Positions 6,967-12,445 of a DNA stretch of 64,000 bases are shown one piece after another. Source of the DNA: Thermoleophilia bacterium SCSIO 60948. Its GTDB lineage: Bacteria > Actinomycetota > Thermoleophilia > Solirubrobacterales > 70-9. The stretch spans positions 1 through 64,000 of the forward strand of contig CP053031.1 of the NCBI GenBank assembly GCA_021496505.1, in the 5' to 3' direction. A model generated the notes under the pieces. It searched no databases. It was not told the origin of the DNA and saw only the letters and a list, made by a program, of their open reading frames with translations. Made by a program: the position numbers and the translations under genes. Position 1 is the first letter of the stretch. Each line of letters starts with the position of its first letter.

Positions 6967-9633
6967 ATGACGGACGGGGGTCTTGAGGCTCTGACGGGGC
7001 ATATCGAGGATCGTGACCTGACGCAGGAGATGCGCTCGTCGTATCTCGACTATGCGATGAGCGTGATCGTCGGGCGAGCGCTGCCCGACGTCCGCGACGG
7101 GTTCAAGCCGGTGCACCGACGCGTGCTCTACGCGATGCACGACCTCGGCCTGCAGCCGAACCGCCCCTACCGCAAGTGCGCGTTCATCGTCGGCGAGGTC
7201 ATGGGCAAGTACCACCCCCACGGCGACTCGGCGATCTACGACACGCTCGTCCGCCTCGCGCAGGACTTCACGATGCGCTACCCGCTCGTCGACGGCCAGG
7301 GCAACTTCGGCTCGATCGACGACGACCCCGCCGCCGCGATGCGCTACACGGAGGCGCGGCTCGACCGGATCGCCACCGAGATGCTCCGCGACATCGACGC
7401 GGACACCGTCGACTTCGGACCCAACTACGACGAATCCCAGCAGGAGCCGCTCGTCCTGCCGGCCCGGTTCCCGAACCTGCTCGTCAACGGCTCGGCCGGC
7501 ATCGCCGTCGGCATGGCGACGAACATCCCCCCGCACAACCTCACCGAGACGATCGGCGCCGTCCGCGCCTATCTCGAGAACCCGGACATCGACCTCCCGG
7601 GTCTGATGGGCCACATCAAGGGCCCGGACTTCCCCGGCGGCGGAACCATCATGGGCACCGACGGCGTCCGCGACGCCTACGCGTCCGGTCGCGGCTCCGT
7701 CCGCGTCCGCGCCAAGGCGCACATCGAGCCGCTGCGCGGCGGGCGCGAGGCGATCATCGTCACCGAGCTTCCCTACCAGGTGAAGAAGGGCGGCGAGGGC
7801 GGCCTGATCACCAAGATCGCCGACCTCGTCCGCGACAAGAAGATCAACGGGATCTCAGACCTGCGCGACGAGTCGGACCGCTCCGGGATGCGACTCGTGA
7901 TCGAGCTCAAGCGCGGCGGCGACCCGCCCATGGTCGTGCTGAACCAGCTCTACAAGCACACGCCGATGCAGAACACCTTCGGCGTGAACATGGTCGCGCT
8001 GGTCGACGGCGTCCCGAAGACGCTGTCGCTCAAGGAGGTCATCCACCACTACGTGCGCCATCAGCGCGAGGTGGTCACGCGGCGCACCCAGTACGAGCTC
8101 CGCCGCGCCGAGGCTCGGGCCCACATCCTCGAGGGCCTGCTCATCGCGCTCGACAACCTCGACGCGGTGATCGCGCTGATCCGCGGTTCGGCCGACACCG
8201 ACAAGGCTCGCGTGGGCCTGATGAGCGAGTTCTCGCTCTCCGAGGAGCAGGCGCAGGCGATCCTCGACATGCGCCTCGCGCGCCTTACGGCGCTCGAGTC
8301 CGACAAGGTCCGCGCCGAGCACGCCGAGCTGATGGAGCGGATCGCCGAGCTGCGGGCGATCCTCGGCGATCCGGCTCGGATCGACGCGCTGATCGTCGAC
8401 GAGCTGAACGCGATCGACGCGCGCTACGGCGACGAGCGCCGGACCGAGATCACCCACGCCGAGGGCGATCTCGACATCGAGGACATCATCGCCGACCAGC
8501 AGATGGTCATCTCGCTGACCAACTCGGGCTACGCCAAGCGCCTACCGCTCGCGACCTACCGCCAGCAGCGCCGCGGTGGCGTCGGCGTGATGGGGATGGA
8601 CCTCAAGGACGAGGACTTCATCGAGCATCTCCACATCTGCTCGACCCACGACTACCTGCTGTTCTTCACGAACCGCGGCAAGGTCTACCGGCTCAAGGTC
8701 TACGAGCTGCCGGAGGGGTCGCGCACTTCGAAGGGCCGCGCACTCGTCAACGTGCTGCCGCTCCGAGACGACGAGCGCGTGATGGCGGTGATCCCGACGC
8801 GCGACTTCACCGAGAACAAGTACCTCGCGTTCGCGACGGCGAAGGGCCTCGTCAAGAAGACCGAGTTCAAGGCCTACAACACGCCGATCAAGGCCGACGG
8901 GATCATCGCGATCAACGTCCGCGACGGCGACGAGCTGGTCCAGGTCCGCCTCACCTCGGGCGAGAACGACCTCCTGCTCGTCTCGCGCTCCGGCCGCGCC
9001 TCGCGCTTCAACGAGGAGAACGTTCGCGCGATGGGCCGCGACACCTCGGGCGTGCGCGGCATGAACGTCGAGGGCACGGTCGGCGGCGAGCCGGACCGCG
9101 TCCTCGCGATGGACGTCGCCCGCGACGACTCGGAGCTCCTCGTCGTGACCGAGAACGGCTACGGCAAGCGAACGCAGGTCTCCGAGTATCCGACGAAGGG
9201 CCGCGGGACGAAGGGCGTGCTGACGATCAAGCTGACCGCGAAGCGCGGCGGTCTCGCCGGTGCCCTGATCGTGCGCAGCCACCAGGACCTCGTCTTCATC
9301 TCCCAGCACGGGATGGTGCAGCGCACCCAGGCCGGCGGCATCTCGCAGATGAGCCGCGCGACCCAGGGTGTCCGGGTGATGAACATCCGTGAGGACGACC
9401 GCGTCAGCGCAGTCGCCCTGGTCGTCGAGAGCTCGACGCCGTCGGGCGCGCCGACGGTCGAGGCCGAGGGCGCCGACCAGGTCGAGATCGACCTCGGCGC
9501 CGGCGCGCCGGCGGACGGTGCGGACGACCCCGGGCCGCCCGAGGTCGACGTCGCCGAGGATCCCCGTGACGCCGCGCTCGACGAGGCCGCGGAGGAGATC
9601 GCATCGGACGGAGCGGACCCCGAGGACGTCTGA
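6967..9633 (+). CDS. gyrA: DNA gyrase subunit A
   Basis: Breakage-reunion subunit of gyrase. The 888 residues contain the active-site tyrosine Tyr127 in MRYTEAR and the quinolone-determining segment [12 protein letters not shown], with the wild-type Ser88 and Asp92 equivalents of E. coli Ser83 and Asp87. The C-terminal beta-pinwheel carries a GyrA box reading QRRGGVG (534-540) where E. coli has QRRGGKG. The last roughly 60 residues are a highly acidic Asp/Glu/Ala tail. ATG 6967 follows GAGGTGAG. It is downstream of gyrB but separated by 195 nt with two hairpins. Confidence 0.97.
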
Positions 9634-11433: not shown

Positions 11434-11499
11434 CCCGCCGTTCCTACCCACGTCGCGGGCGGTCGACGCGATTTCTCGGGGACCGACCACCGAGTCTGC

Positions 11500-11774
11500 T
11501 TCAATCGAAGGACCAGAGAAAGGAGGTGGTCCTAATTCATTCGATGCTTAGAGGGACTCTGGAGGTGTTCGGCCGCTAGTTGGCCGTCCCGTCCGAGGAG
11601 CGGGTGACCGCATCCGAGGCGGAACAACGTGCGGGCCGCCTGGCGAATCCAAGCCGGGCACCGGCGAGATGGAGGAGACCGGGACCTCGTCCCACCCGGT
11701 CGCCCAGACCCCTCCGCTCGTCAAGAGGAAAGTACGCACCGAGTATGCGAGAGGCCGCCTTCGGGCGGCCTCTC
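11500..11774 (+). ncRNA. Candidate structured RNA with extended anti-16S sequence and UUCG terminator
   Basis: No convincing gene covers 11434-11833. The plus strand holds AGAAAGGAGGTGGTCC (11517-11532), complementary to the expected 16S rRNA 3' end at 15 of 16 positions with the last as G-U. It is followed by serial stems: CGGCC/GGCCG (11570/11582), CCCG/CGGG (11588/11601), GGCGG/CCGCC (11618/11636), GCCGG/CCGGC (11653/11661) and GACCGGG/CCCGGTC (11677/11695, with nested GGGAC/GTCCC). The series ends in an 11-bp UUCG hairpin. Two short frames (MLRGTLEVFGR from 11544, and one from TTG 11580) could be translated instead. The stems are seen; the RNA identity is unknown to me. Confidence 0.5.
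11749..11774. terminator. Strong bidirectional hairpin (UUCG tetraloop)
   Basis: GAGAGGCCGCC, loop TTCG, GGCGGCCTCTC: an 11-bp perfect stem. It lies at the 3' end of the plus-strand RNA candidate and 60 nt beyond the stop of the minus-strand HNH gene, so it can serve both. No long T-run follows on either side, as is common in GC-rich actinobacteria. Confidence 0.7.
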
Positions 11775-11833: not shown

Positions 11834-12445
11834 TCAGGCGGCGAGGCGTTCGACGGGGAGGTAGGTCTCCCACGCCGACGGCACCTTCGGGCTGGCGATC
11901 CTGATGAAGACCGTCGGCCCGGGTGGCTTCGGCTTCGTGCGCGGGTGCATCGCGATCTCGCGCGGCAGGCGGTTGCCCTTCTTGCGGTTGCACGGGGCGC
12001 AGGACGCGACGATGTTGTCCCACGCCGACCCACCGCCGCGGCTGCGCGGGATCACGTGGTCGACCGTGAGGCCTCCCCCCTCGACACCGCAGTACTGGCA
12101 GGTGTAGGAGTCGCGCGCGAGGACCGCCTTGCGCGTGATCTTGCGCCTGTGGACGTCACGCGGAATCCGCACGTAGCGGACCAGCCTGATCACGCAGGGA
12201 CGCTCGATCTCCATGCTCTCCGCCCGCAACGCACCCGCGGCGTGCTCGAGCAGCTCGGCGCGTTCCTTGAGCAGCAGCACCGTCGCTCGCCTGACGCTGC
12301 AGACGTTGATCGGCTCGTAACTGGCGTTGAGGACGAGAACGCGGCCGCGCGTTCCGGGGGCGGTCGCGATCGCGGCGGACGCGAGCGAGAGCGACGGGCG
12401 CAACGCGCCGCGGATACCTACCTCAGGCTCGACCTTGAGGCTCAC
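11834..12445 (-). CDS. HNH endonuclease family protein
   Basis: A 203-residue protein of the family starting VLVLNASYEPINVCS, common in actinobacteria and cyanobacteria. It has a zinc-type HNH core: CQYC, then LTVDHVIPRSRGG (the catalytic His in DH), WDNIVASCAPCNRKKG with the Asn and second Cys pair. GTG 12445 has no visible Shine-Dalgarno, and the first 32 residues are poorly conserved in style, so the true start may be internal. The role of this family is not known; it is not linked here to a methylase or intein. It faces the RNA candidate tail-to-tail. Confidence 0.85.
   Translation of the reverse strand: MSLKVEPEVGIRGALRPSLSLASAAIATAPGTRGRVLVLNASYEPINVCSVRRATVLLLKERAELLEHAAGALRAESMEIERPCVIRLVRYVRIPRDVHRRKITRKAVLARDSYTCQYCGVEGGGLTVDHVIPRSRGGGSAWDNIVASCAPCNRKKGNRLPREIAMHPRTKPKPPGPTVFIRIASPKVPSAWETYLPVERLAA

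Follow-up and report, generated by a model that had tools for sequence, protein, structure and literature searches.

Ms_IGR-5 (Rfam family RF02471) has been published as a trans-encoded small RNA. Among RNA families of Actinobacteria it has one of the wider distributions, with members in Streptomyces and Mycobacterium. Published work documents transcripts of relatives in M. smegmatis, S. lividans and S. avermitilis, and in both M. abscessus and M. smegmatis Ms_IGR-5 bears significant ribosome reads or footprints (PMC4974804). Rfam labels RF02471 'Actinobacteria sRNA', non-coding, and our literature search on the family yielded no assigned function and no mention of a reading frame or a pseudoknot.

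Other known RNAs share parts of the architecture described below. Peptide-leader attenuators and uORF sensors, such as the trp, erm and whiB7 leaders, likewise have a short SD-led frame whose translation rearranges an overlapping structure, but they precede a regulated gene, whereas the present RNA is without one and its peptide is not conserved. The dual-function small RNAs SgrS and RNAIII are likewise freestanding and carry a small frame that is translated, as ours presumably is, but their peptides are functional, while here amino-acid selection is absent. Finally, tmRNA is also a freestanding, structured RNA with a pseudoknot and a short stop-terminated frame; the RNA studied here differs from it in lacking a tRNA-like domain (ARAGORN, Rfam) and in its apparently ordinary SD initiation.

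Our window is a stretch of 64,000 nucleotides from Thermoleophilia bacterium SCSIO 60948, and the RNA in question had been described from the sequence as unidentified. This proved not quite right. Although ARAGORN and Rfam found no tRNA, no tmRNA and no above-threshold Rfam family, RF02471 at permissive settings aligned collinearly over its full length (1-184 of 184) with 23.7 bits (E 0.0011), under the gathering cut-off of 45 bits. The covariance model R3, for which only 39 sequences from other-order Actinomycetota were used, matched 11511-11708 at 65.8 bits (E 4e-13), its sole match in the 64 kb. Together, the collinear Rfam match and the R3 score indicate that the window RNA is a distant homologue of RF02471 despite missing the Rfam threshold. 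Both have the same SD, the same tiny frame, the same P2 and P3 elements and a freestanding gene. In contrast to the structure that we propose, the Rfam consensus has no partner for the P2 3' arm, lacks the pseudoknot and includes an unsupported 5' helix. Judged from sequence comparison, what appears new is a 12-14-codon frame with a fixed stop, open but without amino-acid selection in 186 homologues; P2 and a pseudoknot with compensatory changes, absent from the Rfam structure; and, against the Rfam label, homologues in Acidobacteriota, Spirochaetota and deltaproteobacterial genomes.

Comparison of homologues supports the SD, the frame, its stop position, P2, the pseudoknot and a freestanding gene. 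The features of the window copy are as follows.

11497-11505, forward strand: probable extended -10 promoter element TGC-TTCAAT; TGCTTCAAT/TTGCTTCAAT is kept just 5' of the RNA in same-family relatives.
11517-11532, forward strand: extended Shine-Dalgarno SD1, AGAAAGGAGGTGGTCC, the 16-nt complement of the 16S 3' tail, with 16 pairs in 160 of 186 homologues.
11535-11579, forward strand: tiny ORF of 14 sense codons, ATT CAT TCG ATG CTT AGA GGG ACT CTG GAG GTG TTC GGC CGC TAG; open in 185 of 186 homologues, stop fixed in all.
11553-11557, forward strand: pseudoknot 5' strand GGGAC, inside the ORF.
11562-11567, forward strand: second SD-like motif SD2, GAGGTG, as codons GAG GTG; the stop codon invariably lies 9 nt downstream.
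11564-11573, forward strand: P2a 5' strand GGTGTTCGGC, in the last sense codons of the ORF.
11574-11579, forward strand: P2b 5' strand CGCTAG, which includes the stop codon; P2b is weaker, with 67% of cells paired.
11580-11639, forward strand: variable insert atop P2 with unconserved hairpins, differing in sequence and length among relatives.
11640-11645, forward strand: P2b 3' strand CTGGCG.
11646-11652, forward strand: one-sided bulge AATCCAA, AATCC-like in nearly all homologues.
11653-11662, forward strand: P2a 3' strand GCCGGGCACC.
11677-11701, forward strand: P3 hairpin GACCGGG..CCCGGTC, whose loop bears the pseudoknot 3' strand.
11689-11693, forward strand: pseudoknot 3' strand GTCCC, in the P3 loop.
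11749-11774, forward strand: 11-bp UUCG hairpin without a U-run, presumed transcript end; the relatives end in comparable hairpins.

Transcription is predicted to start at about 11511-11513; a consensus scan for sigma-70 promoters at the RNA locus returned none. The original prediction that 11517-11532 pairs fully with the 16S 3' end was correct: AGAAAGGAGGTGGTCC forms 15 Watson-Crick pairs and one G-U with the tail GGAUCACCUCCUUUCU, which is the consensus sequence, the host's own tail being assumed equal as no 16S copy emerged from the assembly search. Within the 3.42-Mb assembly AGAAAGGAGGTGGTCC occurs once when up to one mismatch is allowed. A search of the same assembly for the 16S 3' tail complement at one mismatch found none; the rRNA operon may be absent, masked or differently tailed. 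All 16 tail pairs, G-U allowed, are kept in 160 of the 186 distinct homologues, with a minimum of 12 in any, though the homologue search pattern had itself prescribed about 9 of these 16. Complementarity of this extent is far beyond chance.

Downstream of SD1, the 186 distinct homologues share one layout: a start, a variable number of codons, GAG GTG, three free codons and a stop, in all 12-14 codons. The homologues had been gathered by patterns and models that did not require a stop, apart from a reading filter in which eight seeming exceptions were inspected and found to be spurious or alternative matches. In every genuine homologue the stop is the sixth codon from GAG, compared with 0 of 20 chance pattern matches. 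It is TAG in 147, TGA in 27 and TAA in 12, whereas genes at loci flanking the RNA, from which the background was drawn, end in TGA 289, TAG 111 and TAA 50 times, making TAG only 25%. Up to 24 nt upstream of GAGGTG, stops occur in frame in 1 of 186 homologues but in the other two frames in 111 and 82. One homologue alone, L013 (near 1435), has a frame-breaking one-base deletion in an otherwise intact RNA, reflecting either sequencing error or decay.

The starts assigned by alignment are TTG (78), ATG (61), GTG (26), CTG (11) and, together in 9, ATT, ATC, ACG and ATA, mostly 8-10 nt from GGAGGTG. In the window the frame probably begins at ATT 11535, as judged from alignment and spacing: this codon lies 6 nt after GGAGGTG and aligns with the TTG starts of relatives, while the alternative, ATG 11544, lies at 15 nt. 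Near-cognate codons (CTG, ATT, ATC, ACG, ATA) occupy the aligned position in about 20 of 186 copies and recall the AUU start of infC; all of them, including the window ATT, are assigned as putative starts from the alignment. The original prediction listed a start at 11544, a second GGAGGTG (11561-11567), a TTG at 11580 and the 11-bp UUCG hairpin, all of which are present in the sequence. Of its two tiny frames the first is real, albeit probably read from 11535, whereas the second, from TTG 11580, was rejected, as a start codon stands there in only 6 of 186 homologues; codon-style conservation from 11580 was looked for and not found.

These data bear on the possibility that the RNA acts as a decoy or antisense RNA, tying up 30S subunits by means of its 16-nt tail complement with no need of translation. 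Such an RNA would explain why complementarity is conserved well past a normal SD and why GAGGUG is present twice; however, it leaves no role for the open frame or the fixed in-frame stop, and the starts lie at normal SD spacing. We regard this explanation as unlikely.

The region folds below its shuffles (minimum free energy z -3.2), but the serial stems drawn originally are not the conserved structure. Instead, comparison of sequences indicates that the conserved structure is the long-range stem P2 together with the pseudoknot. P2a pairs GGUGnnnnn, in the last codons of the frame, with the nnnnnCACC that follows the conserved AAUCC bulge. Its variable positions are paired in 85% of cases among 100 unique sequences, compared with 69% (sd 1.5) when the 3' arms were shuffled and 12-47% when they were slid. 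The pseudoknot joins the frame's NGGACN to NGUCCN in the P3 loop, and a copy's own hexamers pair fully in 50% of cases versus 28% (sd 3) after shuffling, none of 300 shuffles reaching the observed value. Scored jointly in 34 sequences, P2a, P2b and the pseudoknot gave a covariation of 0.289 against 0.117 (sd 0.010) for shuffles (0/500), and for the pseudoknot alone 54 CM-aligned sequences showed double-sided changes in 32 cells as against 11.8 (0/500), shuffle counts that ignore phylogeny and thus represent strong support rather than a probability. The A2 alignment had been fitted to P2, not to the pseudoknot. Compensation within the pseudoknot core is seen as UGAC/GUCA in two Spirochaete copies and as UCGAUC/GGUCGA in L036. 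Compensatory changes, whose absence was to count against the original prediction, thus do exist, albeit in stems that it had not drawn.

Other helices fared less well. The 5' helix of Rfam RF02471 (SD GGUGGU with GCUGCC) shows no covariation, 239 of 500 shuffles reaching the observed score, and on these alignments it fails for the whole family and not just for the window copy. A P1 hairpin around the start codon (GGTCC with GGAC) was rejected for want of a covariation excess; in several Spirochaete copies its GGAC has become TGAC while the upstream GTC has no matching change. The 11-bp UUCG hairpin, one part of the earlier drawing that stood, lacks a U-run, and a consensus scan found no terminator-like site at 11749-11774. 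Among the Spirochaetota copies L201, L204, L205, L206 and L208, most share after the pseudoknot hairpin a GCAGTCGC-like element (GCAGTC.C) that was not seen in Actinomycetota and is possibly a further structural domain.

Could the RNA simply be a minimal mRNA for a functional peptide of 12-14 residues, with the structure merely stabilising the message? Conserved SD, start, open frame and stop, the ribosome footprints on relatives and the E-V common to all predicted peptides would suit such an mRNA. In close homologue pairs, however, no amino-acid-level selection was found in the N-terminal half: the synonymous fraction of codon differences is 0.147 against a random expectation of 0.163, and differences fall 65/86/55 by codon position. 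Even in genomes of 28-38% GC, GAG GTG shows no synonymous change, which points to a constraint at the RNA level, and T-x-E-V is accounted for by the pseudoknot GGAC and the invariant GAGGUG. The final three residues change freely and together with P2. A peptide-coding role is accordingly quite improbable. Because the open frame and fixed stop are kept while amino acids are not conserved, selection appears to act on the frame's being read and not on the peptide sequence. In L225 and L226 (Acidobacteriota, near 1511) the frame contains a third GAGGTG (AGC GAG GTG) in addition to the usual one ahead of the stop.

BLASTN homologues occur in 33 of 50 same-family genomes. The RF02471 model matches 39 of 198 genomes of the phylum, and by an exact pattern 86 of 396 Actinomycetota genomes carry the RNA, a few of these being chance matches; carriers include Streptomyces, Mycobacterium, Nocardia, Frankia, Nonomuraea and Acidimicrobiia. 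Outside this phylum, models matched 6 of 120 Spirochaetota genomes, 20 of 149 Acidobacteriota genomes, the weaker ones unconfirmed, and 4 of 118 in the phylum of a deltaproteobacterial MAG, one of which was rejected on reading. On reading, copies from all these groups have the same frame, P2 and pseudoknot; several of the non-Actinomycetota carrier genomes are MAGs. Nearly all carriers have one copy per genome. Bacillota gave 0 of 249 matches and Pseudomonadota 2 of 249, weak and unrelated on reading, neither result being proof of absence. Nine viral pattern matches, none with the stop or P2, led us to reject phage-borne copies, and L211, L222, L223 and L232 were either discarded or not confirmed when read. 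A conventional base-pairing sRNA, as which Rfam files the family, would fit the freestanding gene and its publication as a trans-encoded sRNA, the frame then being incidental; yet conservation of frame and stop across phyla cannot be incidental, and this explanation has little probability.

The RNA unit of about 260 nt is gene-free, with a SnoaL-like gene diverging from it on one side and an HNH-endonuclease gene converging on it from the other. Neighbours vary by clade: Thermoleophilia-like relatives have gyrA upstream and HNH downstream, Mycobacterium an aminotransferase-like gene upstream, and Spirochaetes other neighbours. The order gyrA, RNA, convergent HNH endonuclease recurs in the Thermoleophilia-like relatives; in the window three genes intervene between gyrA (6967-9633, forward) and the RNA, with HNH at 11834-12445 on the reverse strand. 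Across 57 loci, with approximate ORF calls, the next downstream gene lies on the opposite strand in 33 and on the same strand in 24. Because the neighbours differ in identity and strand, the RNA appears to be freestanding and not a leader. A tiny frame over alternative structures is the classical layout of a peptide-leader attenuator, and here the frame does overlap P2, P2b and the pseudoknot; but the leader alternative in the original prediction is very improbable, given downstream neighbours that are unrelated across clades and mostly not co-directional, and in the window a convergent HNH gene with no gene to be read through into. The other alternative it offered, a small RNA that touches ribosomes, held up well: the gene is freestanding, SD and open frame are conserved, and mycobacterial relatives carry footprints (PMC4974804).

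With slightly better than even confidence, we therefore favour a freestanding small RNA gated by translation, in which a ribosome loading at SD1 opens the fold and ends at a stop behind SD2. Initiation would take place at the extended SD, and the translating ribosome would unwind the pseudoknot and P2. Since the P2 5' arm consists of the last five codons of the frame plus the stop, translation would have to open P2. From the end of GAGGUG it is 6 nt to the last sense codon and 9 nt to the stop, a spacing that would let the anti-SD of a ribosome at the stop pair with this motif in an initiation-like geometry. Such re-pairing with SD2 would hold the ribosome and leave the P2 3' arm (nnnnnCACC) single-stranded. 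In this way the RNA would alternate between a closed fold without a ribosome and an open one with it, and might act in trans as a translation sensor or ribosome holder. Docking at SD2, gating and action in trans are our reading of this arrangement. Against it, the invariance of GAGGUG could stem from P2 alone, with no anti-SD docking at the stop, and the pseudoknot 5' strand precedes the last sense codon by 17-20 nt, which places it at the edge of the terminating ribosome's footprint, so that the pseudoknot might re-form behind the ribosome. Neither a target in trans nor a conserved single-stranded seed emerged for the RNA.

In conclusion, we tentatively suggest, as a possibility somewhat short of an even chance, that RF02471 belongs to a phylum-spanning class of freestanding RNAs, present in many Actinomycetota, Acidobacteriota, Spirochaetota and deltaproteobacterial genomes, whose state is set by a ribosome that crosses a frame of free sequence and is held at its stop by a second SD, and which would serve as a trans-acting reporter of translation or as a ribosome holder. 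The revised structure offers a corrected model for finding relatives of the family. A frame selected just for being read, a stop tied to SD2, a pseudoknot and an occurrence in at least three further phyla turn one of the more widely spread actinobacterial RNAs into a testable hypothesis of ribosome sensing or holding.
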